The position numbers and the translations under genes were made by a program. 64,000 nt of DNA from Nitrospirota bacterium (lineage in GTDB: Bacteria; Nitrospinota_A; UBA7883), in the NCBI GenBank assembly GCA_024275315.1, contig JAJRZK010000001.1, positions 1 through 64,000 of the forward strand, in the 5' to 3' direction. A model generated the notes under the pieces. The model searched no databases and had not been told where the DNA came from. It worked only from the letters and a program-made list of their open reading frames with translations. Positions 1 through 62,728 of the stretch are shown piece by piece; the first letter of the stretch is position 1, and every line of letters starts with the position of its first letter.

Positions 1-252
1 CTTCTGCTGACACACCCGAAACCATGGAAACCACATCCGACGCGCCTGCGTCACAGGACGATATCGACGCACTGCTATCCGCGAACGCTTCTTCTGCTGA
101 CACACCCGAAACCATGGAAACCACATCCGACGCGCCTGCGTCACAGGACGATATCGACGCACTGCTATCCGCGAACGCTTCTTCTGCTGACACACCCGAA
201 ACCATGGAAACCACATCCGACGCACCTGCGTCACAGGACGATATCGACGCGC
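1..252 (+). repeat. 90-bp in-frame coding tandem repeat, at least 2.8 copies
   Basis: Positions 1-90 and 91-180 are identical. The third copy (from 181) differs at one base over its first 70 bases (near 214) and diverges after about 250. The period of 90 bases is exactly 30 codons, so the array adds whole 30-residue units without breaking the reading frame. The window begins inside the array, so the true copy number is unknown. The near identity of copies at DNA level, including third codon positions, points to recent duplication rather than old repeats held by protein selection. Confidence 0.97.
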
Positions 253-1457
253 TGTTGGCCGATAGCAGGCCATCGGAAGAAAAATCGACTGTCCCTGATG
301 TCATAAGCCAGGCTGATGGTGAATCAAGCAAGCCGACTGAAGAGGGCGATATTGATGAAAGTAGCGACAACCTTGCTCCCGGCCAGGATGAAACCGAGAT
401 TATTTCGCAGGATGATATCGACGCTCTGCTTGTCAGCGCAGATATGGAAGATGAACCAGACGAAGACGAGGCGTCACCGGATGAAACCACGATCATTCGC
501 AAGGAAGCTGAACCGGAGCAGGCCGAAGAGGAAGATACCAGCGAAGACGAGCTCGATAGCCTGTTAGATGGCGAAGACGAAGACATGGGAGAGGATATTT
601 TTGTCGATGAGACGTCAGACGATGACTCCATCAGTGAAGAGCCCACCCTGGACGATATTATATCTGAAGAGGAAGCCACATCGGAATTCCCCCGCGAAGA
701 TGATCATGACGAAAGCATGGACGAGGAGATTCTTGGTATCCCCTCCACATCACATTCCGACAGCGCAGACGAAGAGCTTGATGACTTTCATATGCCAGAG
801 GATGAGGTCGAAAGCAAAAAGGGTATCGGCGCTTTGTTGTCAGGGCTGCTTTTCGGGCTGATAAAGCCGATCCGTCAGGTTGCAGGCAAAATACCACTGC
901 CCCCATTGATGCGGGGTAAAGTGTTTTCATCGAAGTTCAGTGTTATTGCGACGGGCGCCGCAGGCGTCATGCTGATGGCGTTATTAGGCGGCGGATACTG
1001 GTTTTTTTATGGAGGAGTCCAGCCGGAGCTGGCGTCCCAGGCCGCGCAACCTGCAAAAGATGAGGCTAAGGATGAAGGGAAATCCGACGAAACCAAAGCC
1101 GAGGAAGAGCTTCTGGTGGACGATCTTACGACAGACACCACAGAAGCGAAGGTTCCAGAGATAAATATCGAAGTGTTTTTACCGGTGGAGTTTGATTCGG
1201 AAGCGACCCGGATAATGAGTGTGACGGTTAGCCTGCTTTTCGAATCCGCCGAGTTCAGGGACGACGCGTATGGCCGGGTTTTTTATTCCACGGTTACCGT
1301 GGAAAACGCCATCGAAGCTTTTTTCAAGGAGAAGTTTTATTCCGATACCGTGTTTGTGCAGGACAAGCTCGAGGAGTTCCTGATGCAAAGTCTTAAGTCG
1401 TCCAAAGAGATAATCGGCGTAAAGGCGGTTCGATTGGAAAACCTCACCTTTGAATAG
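3..1457 (+). CDS. Membrane protein with repeated FliM-type CheY-docking motifs (5' partial)
   Basis: The frame is open from the window edge, so the true start lies upstream; an internal ATG at 24 is just the repeat unit's methionine. Counting from that ATG, residues 1-265 are very acidic and low in complexity. They carry SQDDIDALL at about 10-18, 40-48, 70-78 and 128-136, plus weaker relatives such as EDELDSLL. This peptide closely matches the N-terminus of FliM in this window (LSQEEVDALL), the segment that binds phosphorylated CheY in known FliM proteins. A basic stretch follows, then one membrane segment at about 307-330. The last 100 residues resemble the FliL periplasmic domain in length and pattern, but only weakly. 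I infer a cytoplasmic multivalent docking tail tethered to the inner membrane, perhaps near the motor. The next gene, gatB, is unrelated. Reading frame and motifs are certain; the function is not. Confidence 0.8.
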   Translation, partial: SADTPETMETTSDAPASQDDIDALLSANASSADTPETMETTSDAPASQDDIDALLSANASSADTPETMETTSDAPASQDDIDALLADSRPSEEKSTVPDVISQADGESSKPTEEGDIDESSDNLAPGQDETEIISQDDIDALLVSADMEDEPDEDEASPDETTIIRKEAEPEQAEEEDTSEDELDSLLDGEDEDMGEDIFVDETSDDDSISEEPTLDDIISEEEATSEFPREDDHDESMDEEILGIPSTSHSDSADEELDDFHMPEDEVESKKGIGALLSGLLFGLIKPIRQVAGKIPLPPLMRGKVFSSKFSVIATGAAGVMLMALLGGGYWFFYGGVQPELASQAAQPAKDEAKDEGKSDETKAEEELLVDDLTTDTTEAKVPEINIEVFLPVEFDSEATRIMSVTVSLLFESAEFRDDAYGRVFYSTVTVENAIEAFFKEKFYSDTVFVQDKLEEFLMQSLKSSKEIIGVKAVRLENLTFE

Positions 1458-5421: not shown

Positions 5422-6705
5422 CTAGAAATTGAAGATCGTCATGAGGTAGCTCCAGTTCGATGTGTCGCTATTATCGCTGGAGCGCTCCTTGGCGGCTTCA
5501 CCAGGCTGGAAGATGGAGTATCCAAAAACCAGCTTCAGGTTTTTAAGAGCTTTGTAGACCACCGTCAGATCGATTTCAGTACCCGCGTCGGTGCTGTCTT
5601 TACCTGCGACGGCGGACTTGAAGGCCTTCGTGCCAACCACGTTTAACCAATCATCGTTACCGTTATCCAGTGTGAAAATGTGGTAGTCGAGCTTGACGAC
5701 CACTTTTTCCATGGGCTTGGTTTTCAGATTGATCTGGATATCGTTCATGTTGCCCCAGGAAAAATAATCCATGTAACCATACTTACCGTGGTTTGTATGG
5801 TAGGGAAACACGAAAGTCTTGTGCTCGTTGTCAGATGGATCGTCGTCACCGGAACCGTGATCGTACTCAACGCCTATCCGGGTGCCGCCCAGGACATTGA
5901 GCTTATACCCGACCCTGACCGCGAACGCGTTGGCCGACTGCGTCACGCCTTCGGCCCAGTCGCCAGACTGGAAGACCGCTTCGGCTGTGCCGTCAAAACC
6001 ACCCATGACCGCCTTGAACCTGGCTCCGTAGGTCATGATGTTGTGACCCTTGGCCGCGTTCCCGTCCGCGTCGGTGCTGGCGGTTTTCCAGTTAAGGAGA
6101 TAAATATCAAGCTGAACCTTTTCAGCCAGCTTGGTCATGGCGTATACACCCATCAGATCGGCGTCGTTCTTTTCGTCGGATGGCTTGCCGCTCTCATCTT
6201 CTTTGGAGGCGATCAAATCGATCCTGGTTTTGCCCAGGTCTACGATAACTTTCAGGGCGTCATGCGTACGCGCCTGATCTTTCCATCCGAGATGACCGAG
6301 CAATCTCTGGTCACCATAAACAAGGGTCTGGCGTCCGGCCTTGATCCCGATGGGGGAACCTCCGATTTTGTTGACCTGGAAATATCCTTCAAAAATGTCC
6401 ACAGCCTGAACGTCGGTACCTTCCATGCTGGTGTTGACGTTGCCCTCTTGACCCCATTGCCTTACATCCTGCAATGTGATCTTGGCGAAAACATCTTCGG
6501 CCACGGTGGCCTTAACCGTGAAGCGCGCACGGCTCCCTATGAATCCCTGCTTGTCGTCGCTACCACTGTTAAAGTCGGAGTTGTCCCGCATTTCCGGGCG
6601 GAACCGCAATTGCCCGCTGAAATCGAAAGTGGTTTCAGCGAAAGCCTGGCCGGTGAGCGCGATTGCGCACACCATGACCATCGTGAGAAATAAACTTTTT
6701 TTCAT
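5422..6705 (-). CDS. Outer-membrane beta-barrel porin, alginate-export-like
   Basis: The 427-residue protein starts with a clear signal peptide (MKKSLFLTMVMVCAIALTG, cleavage after AFA). Its mature part has alternating hydrophobic strands and aromatic girdles and ends in phenylalanine, as outer-membrane barrels do. The start of the mature chain (FSGQLRFRPEMRDN, then GFIGSRARFTVKA) resembles the alginate-export/AlgE-like porin family. A strong ribosome site (GAGGGGG) lies 5 bases before the ATG. It stands alone, with a terminator behind it and a 400-base upstream region rich in inverted repeats. The substrate is not known; a general or anion-type channel is as likely as a sugar polymer exporter. 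Confidence 0.85.
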   Translation of the reverse strand: MKKSLFLTMVMVCAIALTGQAFAETTFDFSGQLRFRPEMRDNSDFNSGSDDKQGFIGSRARFTVKATVAEDVFAKITLQDVRQWGQEGNVNTSMEGTDVQAVDIFEGYFQVNKIGGSPIGIKAGRQTLVYGDQRLLGHLGWKDQARTHDALKVIVDLGKTRIDLIASKEDESGKPSDEKNDADLMGVYAMTKLAEKVQLDIYLLNWKTASTDADGNAAKGHNIMTYGARFKAVMGGFDGTAEAVFQSGDWAEGVTQSANAFAVRVGYKLNVLGGTRIGVEYDHGSGDDDPSDNEHKTFVFPYHTNHGKYGYMDYFSWGNMNDIQINLKTKPMEKVVVKLDYHIFTLDNGNDDWLNVVGTKAFKSAVAGKDSTDAGTEIDLTVVYKALKNLKLVFGYSIFQPGEAAKERSSDNSDTSNWSYLMTIFNF

Positions 6706-6791
6706 AATGCCCCCTCAATAAATAAAAATATAGAATCGCCAGCCAAGTCCATATCACTGAGGATATGCAACTTCTTTAACACAAACTGGCG

Positions 6792-6869
6792 AAGCGCTTT
6801 AAACAAGGACCCTTGTGCATAAATCCGTTCCGGATTTGAAAGTAGCTGGCAAAGGGTCTAGTAAGCGCT
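6792..6869. promoter_or_regulatory. Nested inverted repeats upstream of the porin
   Basis: The 406-base gap 6706-7111 has no convincing gene. At its heart, AAATCCG (6821-6827) and CGGATTT (6831-6837) form a perfect dyad around TTC. Outside it, GACCCTT (6808-6814) pairs with AAGGGTC (6852-6858), and AAGCGCT occurs at 6792-6798 and 6863-6869. A further dyad, CAAGG/CCTTG, lies at 6804-6815. It lies 87-164 bases before the porin ATG and could be an operator or a structured 5' leader of the porin message. Confidence 0.5.
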
Positions 6870-6955
6870 GGAATTAGTCTAGAGCCTATTCTTTGGATTG
6901 GTTATGATAAAAGTCATAAAATATCGTTGATTATAACTACAATCTTTTATATATC

Positions 6956-6982
6956 AATAGTTTCACGATTGAATGCCGATTT
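6956..6982 (+). promoter_or_regulatory. Possible sigma-28 promoter with no annotated gene behind it
   Basis: AATAGTTT, 11 bases, then GCCGATTT matches the FliA consensus TAAAGTTT-N11-GCCGATAA at 12 of 16 positions with exact spacing. It points rightward, away from the porin. Downstream there is only a 35-codon open frame (ATG at about 6999, TGA near 7106) with no good ribosome site, then the tRNA-Val gene on the other strand. It may drive a small RNA, or it may be chance in an AT-rich stretch. Confidence 0.3.
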
Positions 6983-7111
6983 TTCCCATACCTGTGATAT
7001 GGAAAAAAGTGTTTGTGCGGAAGCCCGGTTGATGGAAAATCATCTTCTATATATTATGGTCAGCGATAGCAGAACCGGGATTTGCGGAACAGTTTCACAC
7101 AGATGAAAATA

Positions 7112-7186
7112 TGGTGGGCGGTACTGGATTCGAACCAGTGACTTCCACCGTGTGAGGATGGCACTCTCCCGCTGAGTTAACCGCCC
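7112..7186 (-). tRNA. tRNA-Val (anticodon CAC)
   Basis: Read on the minus strand, the acceptor arm GGGCGGT pairs with ACCGCCC. The anticodon loop is CTCACAC on a CCATC/GGTGG stem, giving anticodon CAC, which reads GUG. The T arm contains GGTTCGAATCC, and the CCA end is encoded (7112-7114). All arms are intact. Confidence 0.97.
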
Positions 7187-7209
7187 GGGTAGATTACGGA
7201 ATTAATGGG

Positions 7210-7238
7210 ATGATAACCCCTTTTGACCCCATTGTCAT
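7210..7238 (-). promoter_or_regulatory. Sigma-70 promoter of tRNA-Val
   Basis: On the minus strand ATGACA (7233-7238), 17 bases, then TATCAT (7210-7215): each box differs from consensus at one position. The -10 box ends 23 bases before the mature tRNA 5' end, as expected for a tRNA promoter. Confidence 0.6.
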
Positions 7239-7268
7239 TTCCAAAACAAAGCAAGATTGGCCAAACAT

Positions 7269-7457
7269 TCAGACAGCGTTGGCTTTTTGCTGTTTTTTAT
7301 TCATATCGGGTTTGGGAGTAGCTTCCGGATATATGCATGCCGGGCAAACGTGGCCGGATACTCGCCCGCATTGAAGACACCTGGCGTCTTCAAAACGATC
7401 TATCAATGTACCGCCACAATGGCGGCAGGTTTGGGCGGTGTTTATCTCCCTGGTCAT
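7269..7457 (-). CDS. Small zinc-ribbon protein
   Basis: This 62-residue protein has three CxxC pairs (CRHCGG, CLQCGR, CPAC), a pattern typical of zinc-ribbon folds. A very good ribosome site (AAGGAG, 7 bases before the ATG at 7457) supports translation. It lies 176 bases after polA on the same strand and before tRNA-Val. I do not recognise a named family. The C-terminus is short, polar and lysine-rich. It could bind nucleic acid or act as a metal-carrying partner, but nothing here shows which. Confidence 0.65.
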   Translation of the reverse strand: MTREINTAQTCRHCGGTLIDRFEDARCLQCGRVSGHVCPACIYPEATPKPDMNKKQQKANAV

Positions 7458-7633
7458 TGCACGCTCCTTGCTGATTTGAAAGCGAAATAGTTTACGATAT
7501 CCGGGGCGATAAAGTCAAATCCCCGCTGGATAATGGGTAACATCCTGAAATATCGTGGATTGTGTTGAGCCTGACCGCTCCCACAGGCCTTGCGCATGAT
7601 GGCGTTAGAACACCCTAGGTCGGTGCGTGCAGG

Positions 7634-10309
7634 TCAGTGCGCTTCGTCCCAATTGTCTCCGGCGTTGATTACGACAGCCAGGGGCACATCAAGCTCGGCG
7701 ACGTTTTCCATCTCTTCCCTGACAAGATGAGTCAATCGGTCGACTTCATCTTCGGGGGATTCGAACAGCAACTCGTCATGAACCTGAAGTATCATCCTCG
7801 ACGACAGTTTCTCCGTGGCGAGCCGACGGTCTATTGATATCATGGCAAGCTTGATCAGATCCGCGGCGCTCCCCTGTATGGGAGTGTTGATCGCGTTTCG
7901 TTCCGCAAACTCCCTGGCCTGTTTGTTGGACGAGTTTATTGCCGGCAGATAACGCCGCCGGCCCAGGAGCGTGACGGCATAACCATTTTTCCTGGTTTTT
8001 TCCAGCTCCCGACTGAAATATTTCCTGATCCCGGGATATCTGTCGAAATAGTTGTCTATATATCTTTGCGCCTCACCTCTTGGGATTTTAAGCTCGCGCG
8101 CAAGGCCGAAAGCGGTTTGGCCATAGATAATCCCGAAGTTCACCGTTTTGGCGACCCTGCGCATGTCCTCGGTAATCAAATCCGAATGAACGCCGAACAC
8201 TTCCGCGGCGGTCCTGGCGTGGATATCCTCGCCGTTATGAAAACTTTCCAGCAAAACTTTTTCAGAAGAAAAACAGGCGAGTAGCCTAAGCTCTATTTGC
8301 GAATAATCGGCGGAAACCAGCTTGTGTCCGGCAGGGGCGACAAAGGCTCTCCTGATCTCTCTGCCCAGCCCGGTGCGGACCGGTATGTTCTGAAGGTTCG
8401 GGTTGGACGAAGACAGCCTTCCGGTCGCTGTGACTGTTTGGTTGAAGGAGGTGTGAATTCGGCCGGTTGATGGATTGATCATTTTTGGCAAAGCGTCCAC
8501 ATAGGTGTTTTTCAGCTTCGCCAGACGCCTATACTCCACCACCAGCTCCGGCAACCGGTGCTTGGGCGCAAGGTTTTCCAGGGTGGCCTGATCGGTTGAA
8601 AAACCGGTTTTGGTTTTGCGTCCGTAAGGTAGTTTGAGCTTGTCGAAAAGAATCACGCCGAGTTGCTTGGGAGAGTTGATGTTAAACACCTCGTCAGCGG
8701 TTTCATATATTTTCTTCTCCATTTCGCCGATCCGGGTTCCCATGGACAAAGAAAGTTCCTTCAACACTCCGGCGTTCACCATCACGCCGTTTCGCTCCAT
8801 TTTGGCCAGAGTTACGGTCAAGGGTATCTCCACCTGTTCCAGGAGGTTCGCCAACAAGCTCTCGCTCCTGATTTTGCCGGCAAGCAACTTGGCGAGACGA
8901 TATGTCATATCCGCATCCTCGGCGGCGTATTCGGTGGCTTTGTCCACGGGGATCTTGTCGAAAGTGACACTCTTCGAGCCTGTGCCGCACACTTCGGAAT
9001 AGGGGATTGTTTTCTCGCCAAGGTACTCCCTCGACAGTGCGGACAACCCGTGCGACCTGGCGGGGTCGAGGAGGTATGAGGCGATCATCGTGTCGAAACC
9101 GACAGGATCAACGCCGATCCCCTCGGTATTGAGAACGATCATGTCGTATTTTATGTTCTGCCCATATTTCGGGATCGAGCCATCCTCGAGTAAACGCCTG
9201 ATTTCAGGATACACAACTTCCGGCGTCAGCTGGTCCGGGACGCCTTCATAATCATGCCGGAGCGGCAGATAATACGCCTTTCCCTCCTGGCACGAAAAGC
9301 TCACCCCCACGAGGCGCGCGTCCACGGGGTTCGGGGAGGTGGTCTCGGTATCCACAGCCAGCTCCCCGGAGCGGCGAATGTCTTTTATCATCGCCTGGAA
9401 AGTTTCGATATCGAGAACGGATATGTATTCACGCTCCACCGCCTGGCTGGAAGGCGCAAGGTCATCGATCATCGAGGTGAACTCAAGCTCGGTAAACAAC
9501 TCCCGCAGTTTTTTTGTGTCAGGTTCGCGCACTCTCCATTGATCCGGGTTAAAGTCAACCGGAGCGTCAAGACGGATAGTGGCGAGACGTCTGGATAACC
9601 TGGCCTGGTCGGCGAATTCAAGAAGGTTCTCGCGCAGTTTCTTCCTGGTCATGGTTTTCGCCGCTTCAAGCGCCGCCTCCATGCTTCCATATTCTTTCAT
9701 CAGGGCTATGGCCGTTTTCTCGCCCACGCCCGGCACGCCCGGGATATTGTCGGAAGAATCCCCCATTAGCCCCAGCACGTCAGCGACTTTTTCCGGAGCG
9801 ACCCCGAATTTTCGCTCCACCTCGTCCGGGCCAATACTTATATCCTTCATGGAATCGAGCATGTGTATGCCTGGTCTTATAAGTTGCATCATGTCTTTGT
9901 CGGAAGAGACTATAACCACGTCGTATCCCTTCGCCGCCGCCTTTACCGCCACAGTGCCGATGACATCGTCCGCCTCGTATCCGGGAATCCTGACCGTCGC
10001 AAGATTGTAGCAATCAGCCAGCCGGTTGATATATGGAAGCTGGGCTACAAGGTCTTCGGGCATGTCGGGCCGGTGCGCCTTGTATAAATCGTACATCTCG
10101 TGGCGGAACGTTTTTTCCTTGCTGTCAAAAGCGATCATGGCCAGATCCGGCGTTTTTTCTTTCAGAATTTTTTTAAGCATCAGCGCGAATCCATATACCG
10201 CGTTCGTGGGCACACCCCTGGAATTGGAAAGCAACTGTCTTATGGCGAAATAGGCGCGATAATAATATCCGGCGCCGTCGATCAGGTATAAAATAGGTTT
10301 TTTAGGCAT
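7634..10309 (-). CDS. polA: DNA polymerase I
   Basis: The 891-residue enzyme fills gaps and removes RNA primers during replication and repair. The order is a 5' nuclease (YLIDGAGYYYRAYFA at the N-terminus; GDSSDNIPGVPGVG in the helix-hairpin-helix), a 3'-5' exonuclease and a family A polymerase. The exonuclease keeps its metal residues (DTETT, the YGQNIKYD segment and YAAEDAD), so proofreading is probably active. Polymerase motifs A (DYSQIELRLL), B (around VNFGIIYG) and C (QVHDELLFE) are intact. It starts only 31 bases from the divergent RND adaptor gene. Confidence 0.98.
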   Translation of the reverse strand: MPKKPILYLIDGAGYYYRAYFAIRQLLSNSRGVPTNAVYGFALMLKKILKEKTPDLAMIAFDSKEKTFRHEMYDLYKAHRPDMPEDLVAQLPYINRLADCYNLATVRIPGYEADDVIGTVAVKAAAKGYDVVIVSSDKDMMQLIRPGIHMLDSMKDISIGPDEVERKFGVAPEKVADVLGLMGDSSDNIPGVPGVGEKTAIALMKEYGSMEAALEAAKTMTRKKLRENLLEFADQARLSRRLATIRLDAPVDFNPDQWRVREPDTKKLRELFTELEFTSMIDDLAPSSQAVEREYISVLDIETFQAMIKDIRRSGELAVDTETTSPNPVDARLVGVSFSCQEGKAYYLPLRHDYEGVPDQLTPEVVYPEIRRLLEDGSIPKYGQNIKYDMIVLNTEGIGVDPVGFDTMIASYLLDPARSHGLSALSREYLGEKTIPYSEVCGTGSKSVTFDKIPVDKATEYAAEDADMTYRLAKLLAGKIRSESLLANLLEQVEIPLTVTLAKMERNGVMVNAGVLKELSLSMGTRIGEMEKKIYETADEVFNINSPKQLGVILFDKLKLPYGRKTKTGFSTDQATLENLAPKHRLPELVVEYRRLAKLKNTYVDALPKMINPSTGRIHTSFNQTVTATGRLSSSNPNLQNIPVRTGLGREIRRAFVAPAGHKLVSADYSQIELRLLACFSSEKVLLESFHNGEDIHARTAAEVFGVHSDLITEDMRRVAKTVNFGIIYGQTAFGLARELKIPRGEAQRYIDNYFDRYPGIRKYFSRELEKTRKNGYAVTLLGRRRYLPAINSSNKQAREFAERNAINTPIQGSAADLIKLAMISIDRRLATEKLSSRMILQVHDELLFESPEDEVDRLTHLVREEMENVAELDVPLAVVINAGDNWDEAH

Positions 10310-49570: not shown

Positions 49571-50332
49571 ATGGATCTGGCCACAATAATCGGTATAATT
49601 GCCGGGCTTGGAGTTATCGCCTCTGCGATAGGCGTCGAGAATCTGACAATTTTCATAAGCATACCATCATTTTTGATTGTAGTCGGCGGCACTGTTTGCG
49701 CCATCATGGTCAACTATCCCTTGGCGGATTTGGGGACTATGATCAACGTCATAAAAAAAACCTTGTTTTATAGTGTACCGAACCCTCGAGACATTATTCC
49801 GATGCTGGTGGATTTCGGATCCAAGGCCCGCCGTGATGGCATACTCGTGCTCCAGTCTGTCACAAAGGATATTGACGACCCCTTCGTGGGCCAGGGCATC
49901 CAGCTTGCCATAGATGGCGCGGAGCCGCAGATGATCCTGAAGATACTTGAAACCGAGGTGGAATACGTCAAGGAGCGGCACAAGCTGGGAGCGCAAATGG
50001 CGGAAGCCATTGGAACTTTCATGCCGGCGTTCGGTATGGTGGGCACCCTGGTTGGCCTGGTGCTGATGTTGCAATCTCTCGACGATCCTTCCACGATCGG
50101 ACCTTCGATGGCCATAGCGCTGATAACCACATTTTACGGAGCGCTGATGGCGAACCTCATTTTTCTGCCTATGGCTGGCAAGCTGAAAAAGCGTAGCGCC
50201 GATGAGGTCCTGGTAAAAGAGCTTATCATAGAAGGAATAGTCTCAATCGCCTCGGGTGATAACCCGAGAATCATGGAACAAAAGTTGCATGCGTTCCTTT
50301 TGCCCAAACTAAGACAGAGCCAGTTCGACTAA
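49571..50332 (+). CDS. motA: Flagellar stator subunit MotA
   Basis: MotA and MotB form the ion channel that powers flagellar rotation. The 253-residue protein has four membrane segments (near residues 4-25, 30-50, 150-170 and 180-205). The loop contains the helix with KARRDGILVLQ seen in family members that contact the switch. The C-terminal membrane part has PAFGMVGTLVGLVLML. Its stop overlaps the next gene's start (TAATG), so translation is coupled. Sequence does not show whether protons or sodium are used. Confidence 0.95.
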   Translation: MDLATIIGIIAGLGVIASAIGVENLTIFISIPSFLIVVGGTVCAIMVNYPLADLGTMINVIKKTLFYSVPNPRDIIPMLVDFGSKARRDGILVLQSVTKDIDDPFVGQGIQLAIDGAEPQMILKILETEVEYVKERHKLGAQMAEAIGTFMPAFGMVGTLVGLVLMLQSLDDPSTIGPSMAIALITTFYGALMANLIFLPMAGKLKKRSADEVLVKELIIEGIVSIASGDNPRIMEQKLHAFLLPKLRQSQFD

Positions 50333-51039
50333 TGAGAAACATCGCGCCACGCCCGGCAGGCAACCGCAGGGGCGACCTTCTCAATAAAATGAACGTCACG
50401 CTCATGATGATTCTTCTGGCGTTTTTCATCGTGCTCAACTCACTTGCTGTTCCTGCGCCGAGCAAGAAAAAAATAGCGCTCGGGTCGTTGATCGGGTCGC
50501 TGGGGATATTGCCTGGGGGGCCGTCTCCAATAGTCGCAAAACGAAAAACACTGACCCGGGCACAGGCGCCCATCCTGCCGAAGCCGGACTCCCCGGCCCA
50601 GTTGATGGGGGAGTTCGAGGAGTATGTCATCAGGAAAAAAATCGCCGAGGATGTGGCTACCGTCGTGACAAACAACGGACTTGAACTGACAATCAACGCC
50701 AGCATGATTTTCAAGCGCAACTCAATAGAGATCAGACCGGTGATTTACCCTGTGCTTGACAGGTTAAGTCATCTGCTCAAACGGGTAAACGGTCCTTTTG
50801 TCATAGAGTGCCATTCGGATAATAAAAAATTCAAATCAGCCAGGTACGCAACTTCCATTGATTTTTCCATTGCCCGCGCTGGCGCTGTCGCCAGGTATTT
50901 TATGGATAAAGGCGGTGTGGAGCACTCTAATGTATCCATCTCGGGTTACGGTCCCCTTTTGCCTCTTTTTCCCAACGACACAGCGGAACACAGGAAGAAG
51001 AACAACAGGGTGCGTATTGTTTACAGGCGTGCGGTTTGA
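50332..51039 (+). CDS. MotB paralogue lacking the ion-binding aspartate
   Basis: This 235-residue protein has one membrane helix near residues 20-38 (NVTLMMILLAFFIVL) and a C-terminal OmpA/MotB peptidoglycan-binding domain. The plug region is replaced by a longer linker. Aligned on AFF, the position of the essential aspartate (AYAD in E. coli MotB) is threonine, and no acidic residue lies in the helix. In the OmpA domain, GHTD has become CHSD, but NNRVRI is kept. It cannot be a normal channel subunit; it may tune or replace a stator part. It overlaps motA by one base. Confidence 0.85.
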   Translation: MRNIAPRPAGNRRGDLLNKMNVTLMMILLAFFIVLNSLAVPAPSKKKIALGSLIGSLGILPGGPSPIVAKRKTLTRAQAPILPKPDSPAQLMGEFEEYVIRKKIAEDVATVVTNNGLELTINASMIFKRNSIEIRPVIYPVLDRLSHLLKRVNGPFVIECHSDNKKFKSARYATSIDFSIARAGAVARYFMDKGGVEHSNVSISGYGPLLPLFPNDTAEHRKKNNRVRIVYRRAV

Positions 51040-51052
51040 CGAGGCGGCTTTT

Positions 51053-51820
51053 ATGAGTATATCCACTGCACAGAAAAAAAAGAGAAGCAAACAGGAAGAG
51101 GAAGGATTCGACGCTGAATTCTGGATGGTTACGTTCGGCGATCTTCTGTCGCTATTGATAACGTTTTTTGTGATGTTGTTTGCAATGTCGTCACTCGACG
51201 ATCAGATTTTATAAGAGATGTTTATTTCAACGTTTTCCGGCGGCGCCGGAGCGTTGTCGTTTGGAATAGGCGGCGAAATTCACCCGCCCACCATGGAGAG
51301 TATCGCCACCCAGCGACAATTGGGGATGCAAAAGCTGTACGATTTTCTACTGAACAAAGACAAACAGATAACAAAGGAGATAATGACCTCGCTCAAGGGG
51401 TTGACTGAAAGCATGCTGGCGATGGATGTGGTGATCAGGAAGCGCGGGCCGAATTTCAGCCTGGTGTTTCCCAGCGAAAAAATGTTCCCGCCCGGATCGG
51501 CGCAGATCAGCGAACCAGTCAAACAGATCCTGAAAAACCTTGGTGATGTCATGAGATTTTCCACAAGCGTAATATCGATCGAGGGGCATACGGACAGCTT
51601 GCCGTTGCATGGCGGCAAGTTCCCTTCAAACTGGGAGCTATCGGCGACCAGGGCGGCCAATGTTATGAAATTTCTGGTTGATCAGACCCCTGTTGAGGCG
51701 AATCGAATACGGGCCATAGGTTTTGCGAATACGAAGCCTGTGGTCAAGGAGGTAAATGAAGATATGCGGGCGCGCAACCGGCGAATAGAGATAATGGTGC
51801 GCCAGGCGCCCGAAAGTTAA
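51053..51820 (+). pseudogene. motB: Canonical MotB interrupted by an in-frame TAA
   Basis: The 5' piece (51053-51214, 53 residues) has a charged cytoplasmic start and the channel helix FGDLLSLLITFFVMLF with the essential aspartate. A TAA at 51212-51214 ends it after SLDDQIL. The same frame continues GAG ATG with the plug region (FISTFSGGAGALSFGIGGE) and a full OmpA domain (EGHTDSLPLHGGKF, ATRAANV, RARNRRIEI) to a TAA at 51818-51820. Together they equal one normal MotB with a single changed codon. The 3' part might be reinitiated at ATG 51218 but would lack the membrane helix. Confidence 0.92.
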
Positions 51821-52385: not shown

Positions 52386-53411
52386 ATGAGCCAGGTTCTT
52401 TCACAAGAGGAAGTCGACGCCCTGTTGCGGGGTGTTACCGACGGCGAGATTGAAACCGAAGTCGAAGATATCGCCGACGAGTCGGGCATAGTCCCCTATG
52501 ACCTTACAAGCCAGGAACGGATCATCCGTGGAAGGATGCCGACTCTTGACATCATCAACCAGAGGTTTTCGAGGTTGTTTCGCAACTCCCTCTCCTCCTC
52601 GCTTCGCAAAGCGCTTGACATTTCCGCGGTATCCACCGACACCGTCAAGTTCGGCGAGTTTGTAAAATCATTACCCGTGCCCGCGTCTTTGCACATTTTC
52701 AAGATAGACCCCCTGCGCGGCTTTGCGCTTCTGGTGGCCGAATCGAAGCTGGTTTTCGCCCTTGTGGACACTTTTTTCGGCGGAACCGGCGAGGGCAAGA
52801 TGAAAATCGAGGGGCGTGACTTTACGATAATCGAGCAACGCATGATCAAAAAGGTGATCCTGATGGTGCTCGAGGACATGGAATCGGCGTGGAAACCTGT
52901 TCATACCGTGAAAATGAGCTTTGTCCGCTCTGAGGTGAACCCCCAGTTCGCCGCGATTGTTCCGCCCACCGACGTGGTGGTCGTAATAATGTTCGAGGTG
53001 GAGCTGGACCAGGTGAGCGGGACGCTCACAGTGTGCCTGCCTTATTCCACCATAGAACCGATTATCGGCAAGCTCCGGGCCGGGTTTCAAAGTGATCAGC
53101 TTGAGGTGGACCAGGCCTGGATCAAGAGGCTGAAGGACAGGCTGAAAGAATCGAGTGTGAATGTTAATGTCGAGCTGGGATCGGCGGTCGTGTCTGGAAG
53201 AAAGTTCATGGAGTTCAAGGTTGGTGATGTCATCACCCTGGATAATGACGCAGATGCGGAAATGAACGTGATGATAGAAGGAATTGTGAAATACAAAGGT
53301 AAACCTGGCGTTGTCAAGGGTAGTACAGCTATTCAGCTTACCAAGGTCATTCCCAGGTCTGGCGCGGGGGAGCGTGACCTCAACCAGGATGGCCAAACAA
53401 AAACAGGATAG
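52386..53411 (+). CDS. fliM: Flagellar motor switch protein FliM
   Basis: FliM receives CheY-phosphate and sets rotation sense. The 341-residue protein begins with the CheY-binding peptide LSQEEVDALLRG, followed by an acidic linker. The middle domain starts near residue 45 and has FFGGTGEG and ERQ-like helices. A SpoA domain (residues about 255-325) pairs with FliN. All parts look intact. The first motif is the same as that repeated in the protein at 3-1457. Confidence 0.97.
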   Translation: MSQVLSQEEVDALLRGVTDGEIETEVEDIADESGIVPYDLTSQERIIRGRMPTLDIINQRFSRLFRNSLSSSLRKALDISAVSTDTVKFGEFVKSLPVPASLHIFKIDPLRGFALLVAESKLVFALVDTFFGGTGEGKMKIEGRDFTIIEQRMIKKVILMVLEDMESAWKPVHTVKMSFVRSEVNPQFAAIVPPTDVVVVIMFEVELDQVSGTLTVCLPYSTIEPIIGKLRAGFQSDQLEVDQAWIKRLKDRLKESSVNVNVELGSAVVSGRKFMEFKVGDVITLDNDADAEMNVMIEGIVKYKGKPGVVKGSTAIQLTKVIPRSGAGERDLNQDGQTKTG

Positions 53412-61870: not shown

Positions 61871-62728
61871 ATGGATCAGGCGGTAACACTCAGGCGACTG
61901 TCACAGGGGACAAGTTTTTCTACGCCCCGAACGGCTAGTTCCAGCTCTATGTTGCGGGGCCTTGCGGTTGCCTCCGGCAAAGGAGGGGTGGGAAAAACCA
62001 ACACGGTGGCCAACCTGGGCTACGCTCTTAGCTCCATGGGCAAGCGGGTGCTTGTGTTGGACGCGGACATGGGGTTGGGTAACATCCACATACTTCTCGG
62101 GCTGGCGCCCAGATACACTTTACAGCATGTTATTTCAGGCGAGCGCGGTATCGAGGACATAATAATCAGGGGCCCTGGCGGGCTGGACATTCTTCCCGCG
62201 GCTTCCGGAACACGCAAGTTCAGCAATCTTACCGGAGAGGAGATGTTGACCCTGAAGACAGAGCTGGAGGTTTTAGAGTCCAACTACGATTTCATACTGT
62301 TCGACTTGGGAGCCGGTATCTCCAGCAACGTCACCTATTTCTGCTCCGCCGCGAAGGATGTGGCGGTGATAACCTCGTCGGAGCCCACATCGTTTGCAGA
62401 TGCGTACGCGTTCATGAAAGTCTTGTCCAGGGACTTTGACAAGCGGGATTTCAAGCTGATAGTCAACAGCGTAAAGAGCAAAAAGGAATCGCTGGATGTT
62501 TTTTCCAGGCTTTCGCAGGTTTCGGACCGGTTCGGGCTGGACATACGGATAGATTTGCTGGGCCACATTGTTCATGATCCGGTTGTTTCCACGGCTGTGC
62601 GCAGGCAGATGCTGTTTACAGAAAAATACCCCAACTCACCTGCGGCCATGTGTATTTATGACATAGCGGACAACCTTGTCCGTACATTGAGGCCGGCGGA
62701 AGTGCGGTGGGGCAAAATATTCTCATAG
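61871..62728 (+). CDS. flhG: Flagellar number regulator FlhG (MinD-like ATPase)
   Basis: The 285-residue ParA/MinD-type ATPase limits flagellar number by acting on FlhF. The N-terminus has the short DQAVTLRRL motif that stimulates FlhF GTPase in known pairs. The deviant Walker A SGKGGVGKTN, switch I/II (DADMGLGNIHILLG, FDLGAG) and a C-terminal membrane-targeting helix region follow. A strong AAGGAG ribosome site lies upstream. Confidence 0.97.
   Translation: MDQAVTLRRLSQGTSFSTPRTASSSSMLRGLAVASGKGGVGKTNTVANLGYALSSMGKRVLVLDADMGLGNIHILLGLAPRYTLQHVISGERGIEDIIIRGPGGLDILPAASGTRKFSNLTGEEMLTLKTELEVLESNYDFILFDLGAGISSNVTYFCSAAKDVAVITSSEPTSFADAYAFMKVLSRDFDKRDFKLIVNSVKSKKESLDVFSRLSQVSDRFGLDIRIDLLGHIVHDPVVSTAVRRQMLFTEKYPNSPAAMCIYDIADNLVRTLRPAEVRWGKIFS

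Follow-up and report, generated by a model that had tools for sequence, protein, structure and literature searches.

A zinc-ribbon membrane protein of flagellated Nitrospinota with repeated switch-protein tail motifs and a predicted FliL-like domain

The window analysed here is a stretch of 64,000 nucleotides from a Nitrospirota bacterium (assembly GCA_024275315.1), and its first base is also the first base of contig C10. The window opens inside the gene of a candidate flagellar scaffold protein (Table 1), so that the assembly has cut through a repeat array and the resulting open reading frame of 484 amino acids has an open 5' end. The gene lies ~45 kb away from the flagellar cluster. The terminal bases of contig C63 provide the second match to the repeat in the genome, and they encode the missing N-terminus: a zinc ribbon (MKIKCPNCQAAYKIDG...CLQCENIFF), after which come an acidic region and one or more further repeats. 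The ribbon is of the CxxC...CxxC form and exceeds the curated cut-off both for PF13717 (E 6e-10, 39.3 bits versus 30.3) and for the MJ0042-type model TIGR02098 (E 1e-7, 31.2 bits versus 20.9). The join between C63 and C10 is supported because relatives keep an uninterrupted gene order. In G007 (L118) one contig holds the transglycosylase, the zinc-ribbon part, the repeat part, gatB and rsgA in that order, and a frameshift is apparent there; L030 has the scaffold gene as a single unbroken reading frame with the same neighbours. Since the array is broken between the two contigs, the motif copies counted in the window are a partial count for the protein.

Table 1. Coordinates of the scaffold gene, its sequence elements and the genes compared with it (window positions unless a locus is given).
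Feature	Position	Strand	Remark
90-bp tandem repeat, 2.8 copies	1..254	+	98% match; one SQDDIDALL in each copy
Scaffold gene, 3' part (484 codons)	3..1457	+	5' part at end of contig C63
Scaffold gene, 5' part	L002:736-1656		end of C63; zinc ribbon, acidic region, at least one repeat
SQDDIDALL copy 1	51..77	+	FliM-tail motif
SQDDIDALL copy 2	141..167	+	FliM-tail motif
SQDDIDALL copy 3	231..257	+	FliM-tail motif
SQDDIDALL copy 4 (EIISQDDIDALL)	405..431	+	diverged flanks, outside tandem array
Weaker motif SEDELDSLL	540..566	+	read from sequence
Single membrane helix (FSVIATGAAGVMLMALLGGGYWF)	936..1004	+	hydropathy; starts at residue 312; sole such segment in window fragment
Predicted FliL-like (SPFH-type) periplasmic domain	1143..1454	+	AlphaFold2 model and Foldseek
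Ordinary fliL of the genome	51849..52343	+	comparator
fliM (MSQVLSQEEVDALLRGV...; LSQEEVDALL)	52386..53411	+	sole other gene in genome with motif pattern; comparator
flhG, MinD-type ATPase	61871..62728	+	candidate ligand; N-terminus MDQAVTLRRL carries DQAxxLR helix (motif definition PMC12826062)
Lytic transglycosylase (SLT) gene copies	L047:12619-13266; L113:6622-7383; L118:911-1540; L030:5375-6037; L036:8462-9163; L039:4895-5569; L159:6783-7454		

The window protein carries the FliM-tail motif SQDDIDALL at four sites. Three of them lie within the 90-bp tandem DNA repeat (repeat peptide ETMETTSDAPASQDDIDALLSANAS) and can therefore be ascribed to a single recent duplication. When a degenerate DNA pattern of the motif was run across the whole genome there were six matches, five in the scaffold gene and one at the N-terminus of FliM, while the reversed control pattern gave none. 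Shuffled proteins are expected to contain at most 0.0025 motifs each, against up to 11 observed, and in the homologous sequences the true pattern occurred 72 times, whereas permuted patterns averaged 0.13. Among 388 genomes, multiple matches to QDD[IFLM]D[AST] were confined to flagellated Nitrospinota; more than one match was found in none of the ~373 genomes outside the phylum. A search of the PDB with the repeat profile reached FliM only at E 1.4, ranked after a polyketide-synthase peptide (SQADLDALL), and the motif alone is therefore not decisive. A further candidate motif protein, with QDDIDSLL, on contig C19 (L154:912-2531, G000), was set aside as a type II secretion/pilus-type ATPase and a likely chance match.

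The conservation of the motif was compared with that of its surroundings among three congeneric species. In the motif cores 28 of 32 positions are invariant (87.5%), while the rest of the disordered region is invariant at 282 of 523 (54%); the corresponding figure for the folded C-terminal domain is 89 of 104 (86%). Because the cores are invariant so far above the disordered region around them, the comparison indicates that the FliM-tail motif is under selection within a region that is otherwise drifting.

The C-terminal part of the protein was modelled with AlphaFold2 from 11 sequences (pLDDT 86, pTM 0.78), giving the order E-E-H-H-H-E. When the model was compared with known structures using Foldseek, the Vibrio FliL ranked first among the PDB matches (E 9e-4), followed by the FliL structures from Helicobacter (TM up to 0.7) and Campylobacter, and the FliL matches were interspersed with stomatin SPFH domains. 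Sequence searches were less direct: the window protein has no Pfam match, PF03748 (FliL) included, and a profile of the C-terminal domain found nothing among PDB chains. Profile comparison with the FliL proteins of the same genomes gave a probability of 90% (E 1.7e-6) when helix and linker were part of the profile, 50% (P 1.6e-4) for the domain only with the outgroup added, and a non-significant 0.1% for the smallest set (A3 versus A2), all three aligning in the same register. Taken alone, the domain of L158, the outgroup orthologue, scores 24.7 bits against the FliL Pfam cut-off of 24.6, while the whole protein, at 18.1, falls below it. From the model and these comparisons we predict with good confidence that the C-terminal fold is FliL-like, and common descent with FliL is likely. 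As the genome encodes a separate, ordinary FliL, the scaffold protein is therefore a second FliL-like protein.

These results bear on the first-pass annotation of the locus, which had described four SQDDIDALL motifs matching the FliM tail, a single membrane helix and a possibly FliL-like periplasmic domain. All four motifs were recovered, hydropathy agreed on the helix, and the domain gained the backing of the AlphaFold2 model, the Foldseek matches to FliL, the domain-only profile comparison and the Pfam FliL match of the orthologue; the structural comparison of the C-terminal part with FliL had been proposed there. What that description missed was the zinc ribbon, as the window begins at the very edge of a contig.

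To place the protein in its phylum, 24 related Nitrospinota genomes were searched, several of them incomplete (18 FliM-positive and 6 FliM-negative). Homologues were found in 16 genomes, comprising 16 of the 18 FliM-positive and none of the six FliM-negative ones (one-sided hypergeometric P ~2e-4, ignoring relatedness). Both FliM-positive exceptions are cases of an unassembled locus: in G003 the contig stops inside the neighbouring gatB, and in G020 the neighbouring transglycosylase was likewise not found. A weak homologue match in G020 was judged false, the locus holding unrelated genes. Among the FliM-negative genomes, G004 (99% complete) keeps both flanks with ~650 bp where the scaffold gene would be, and G021 retains at the same locus the zinc ribbon, acidic region and helix while the periplasmic domain and the array are lost, leaving the remnant MDEDIDALLEE; G022 counts as uninformative for absence of the scaffold gene. 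CheA is kept in five of the six FliM-negative genomes, and the scaffold protein is therefore tied to the flagellum and not to chemosensory kinases at large. A family whose members lacked the motif or a link to motility, which the first-pass annotation had named as the outcome that would speak against it, is not what was found, the homologues being tied to flagellated genomes.

The architecture is shared across the family. Wherever the contig includes the N-terminus of a homologue, that N-terminus is a zinc ribbon, which in G007 (L032) and G019 (L038) lies in a separate, overlapping reading frame. The two parts in G007 (L032:5820-6713 and 6602-8086) may owe their separate frames to a true frameshift within the array or to an error of sequencing. 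Hydropathy gives one clear membrane helix in nearly every homologue; L033 and L036 fall just below the threshold, and L031 has a second hydrophobic stretch. Across three groups of the phylum the core motif is present in 1 to 11 copies per homologue (none in the contig-truncated L033), and the repeat period varies from ~20 to 30 residues, indicating that the arrays expanded separately. Copies that differ in flanks and period nevertheless retain a constant motif core across many species.

Outside the phylum, one FliM-positive genome (G290) encodes an orthologue of the scaffold protein beside the same divergent transglycosylase. It has the zinc ribbon, LDGLMDDIL repeats, four Pfam FliN_N matches (PF16973, E 9.7e-12) and the FliL domain. 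The strict FliM motif is absent from this orthologue, and the FliM of G290 itself retains SQSEVDALL. The FliN of G290 (L159:7728-8066) has no W motif of the FliN tail, while the scaffold orthologue (L158:1-2448) bears four FliN N-terminal domains, as if FliN and the scaffold had traded tail peptides; the FliN encoded in the window does have the W motif (DLWAAAA). In the deep-branching G023 two FliM-type motifs occur together with two FliN-type W motifs, one of which is a weak Pfam FliN_N match (L044, E 0.0014). The FliN tails in these two genomes therefore extend the interpretation from FliM alone to the tails of switch-complex proteins more broadly, and their presence in G290 instead of the strict FliM motif weakens CheY-P as the sole or universal ligand.

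Two kinds of neighbouring gene were observed. Next to the scaffold gene, and divergent from it, the intact loci that were examined carry a gene for a short membrane-anchored lytic transglycosylase, throughout the phylum as in the outgroup; this gene is also retained in the flagellum-less G004. The best NCBIfam match of the outgroup copy is a flagellar-assembly transglycosylase, below the cut-off. In two genomes a receiver-domain response regulator lies directly downstream of the scaffold gene (L039:10356-11021 and L043:10185-10847), and the L039 copy, the one scanned, contains a HisKA-like segment.

Several known systems resemble the scaffold protein in part. FliL (PF03748; Vibrio 6ahq, Helicobacter 7sgn) likewise has one helix, a cytoplasmic N-terminus and a periplasmic SPFH-type domain, but its cytoplasmic part comprises 2-28 residues (PMC10127578), whereas that of the scaffold protein runs to hundreds of residues with a zinc ribbon and tail arrays, and the scaffold gene stands outside any flagellar cluster. 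The CheY-binding tail of FliM and FliY (EIDALL) shares the core Q-x-[DE]-[IVL]-D-[AS]-[LI]-[LF], present in the scaffold protein as Q-x-[DE]-[IVL]-D-A-L-L; the scaffold motifs, in contrast, are internal and repeated with no FliM domains after them, and the FliM core domain PF02154 was not matched in searches of the scaffold protein. The N-terminal region of FliN is shared with the orthologue from G290 and, weakly, with L044, whereas the scaffold protein has no SpoA domain and most Nitrospinota members lack the FliN-type region. The polar landmark HubP/FimV also combines a long acidic repetitive cytoplasmic region with one helix and a periplasmic domain (PMC8789113), but the scaffold protein has no match to a periplasmic LysM or a cytoplasmic C-terminal TPR, its order across the membrane is opposite and its repeat motif is different. 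MJ0042-type zinc-ribbon membrane proteins (TIGR02098, PF13717) share the N-terminal CxxC...CxxC ribbon. A reading on the model of Myxococcus GltJ, in which a zinc ribbon binds MglA, was dropped, as there was no GYF domain match and no supporting paper was found. Known MJ0042-type members bear other C-terminal parts, such as DUF3426; the scaffold protein has no match to DUF3426, and a reading that combined the zinc ribbon with this domain was dropped too.

Taken together, the protein is very probably a flagellar scaffold that displays switch-protein tails. We infer that it sits at the motor, forms a ring, binds ligands and affects switching, arranged as follows. The zinc ribbon and the cytoplasmic region, which is long, acidic and probably disordered, would bear several copies of the FliM tail and, on deep branches, of the FliN tail as well. 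One helix would span the membrane, and the periplasmic FliL-like SPFH domain would probably seat the scaffold at the stator or motor, where it may form a ring, as FliL does; FliL rings fit round the stator (PMC6426602). Because they copy the peptide with which FliM captures its ligands, the tails would most likely dock FliM-tail ligands many at once beside the C-ring. The EIDALL motif of the FliM tail binds CheY-P (PMC9126983), and CheY-P docked on the scaffold tails would create a local reservoir or buffer that tunes switching. As a whole, such a motor-side scaffold docking FliM-tail ligands, CheY-P the likeliest of them, is a reading we hold tentatively, at somewhat under an even chance. We judge CheY-P likeliest on two grounds: the scaffold motif has the core of the CheY-binding peptide, and a receiver-domain gene adjoins in two genomes. 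That CheY-P is the ligand has close to an even chance, and the sink or relay for CheY-P that the first-pass annotation had proposed is plausible.

FlhG, which limits flagellar number and delivers FliM and FliN to the growing C-ring, is a close rival to CheY-P as the ligand, if in itself rather unlikely. Were the repeats to dock FlhG, the scaffold would be a HubP-like landmark or an assembly platform, which we regard as somewhat improbable. FlhG binds FliM through the FliM N-terminus (PMC12826062), and the window encodes an FlhG with the DQAxxLR helix. In favour of FlhG are the FliN tails, the HubP-like build and the transglycosylase neighbour: the tails of the orthologue suit a handler of FliM/FliN complexes better than CheY-P, HubP recruits FlhG (PMC8789113), and the transglycosylase is the divergent neighbour in the outgroup too. 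Against this, a FliL-like domain indicates the stator, not a polar landmark, the LysM and TPR domains are lacking, the topology is reversed with a cytoplasmic N-terminus, and the transglycosylase has outlasted the flagellum in G004.

The weight could also lie on the periplasmic side, with the protein acting as a second FliL that modulates the stator and with tails that bind the C-ring, or competitively block CheY-P or FlhG from FliM, so coupling stator to rotor. The FliL-like fold and the FliL rings that surround the stator (PMC6426602) are consistent with this, as is the restraint of the motor by the short cytoplasmic N-terminus of FliL (PMC10127578), and the presence of an ordinary fliL makes a divided role possible. 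The far greater length of the cytoplasmic part speaks against it, as does the lack of a known rotor partner that binds FliM tails in trans, and we consider this improbable. Still less probable is a chance origin of the motif, as an acidic amphipathic peptide multiplied by tandem duplication within a zinc-ribbon envelope protein that has no role in the motor. The three near-identical DNA repeats of the window could be explained in this way, and chance look-alikes do occur, as in the secretion/pilus-type ATPase and the polyketide peptide of the PDB. Yet the same core is retained in many species with different flanks and periods, its presence and loss track FliM, and the FliL-like fold together with the FliN tails of the orthologue would have to be coincidences.

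In a literature search of partial coverage, no paper was found that brings together zinc ribbon, FliL, FliM and FliN, and the sequences suggest that the family serves the flagellar motor as a docking platform not described before. A bolder proposal, possible though on balance doubtful, is that an SPFH (FliL-type) ring round the stator or motor carries cytoplasmic arms with dozens of FliM tails and, in some lineages, FliN tails, as an undescribed class of regulator that would keep CheY-P and/or FlhG tethered at the C-ring in a high-capacity pool, with repeat number setting motor sensitivity or motor number. Because the arrays are tandem DNA repeats, their copy number changes quickly, and the number of tails differs between species. 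The cytoplasmic side of FliL is tiny in the bacteria studied; here a FliL-like protein bears many times over the peptide with which the rotor captures CheY-P or FlhG. If the docking reading is true, these bacteria would have in the arrays a natural means of tuning motor sensitivity or flagellar number, and the protein would be a phylum-wide flagellar component of Nitrospinota, unnamed in current family libraries.

Two further observations concern the flagellar genes themselves. In G028 the N-terminus of fliM (L160, about 5900-6600) is apparently frameshifted (MSEVLSQGEVDAL, then out of frame), possibly an assembly error or a broken gene. In the window, two consecutive MotB-related reading frames (50332-51039 and 51218-51820) lie between motA and fliL; the second holds a MotB/MotD-like peptidoglycan-binding part, and motB may be split or frameshifted.
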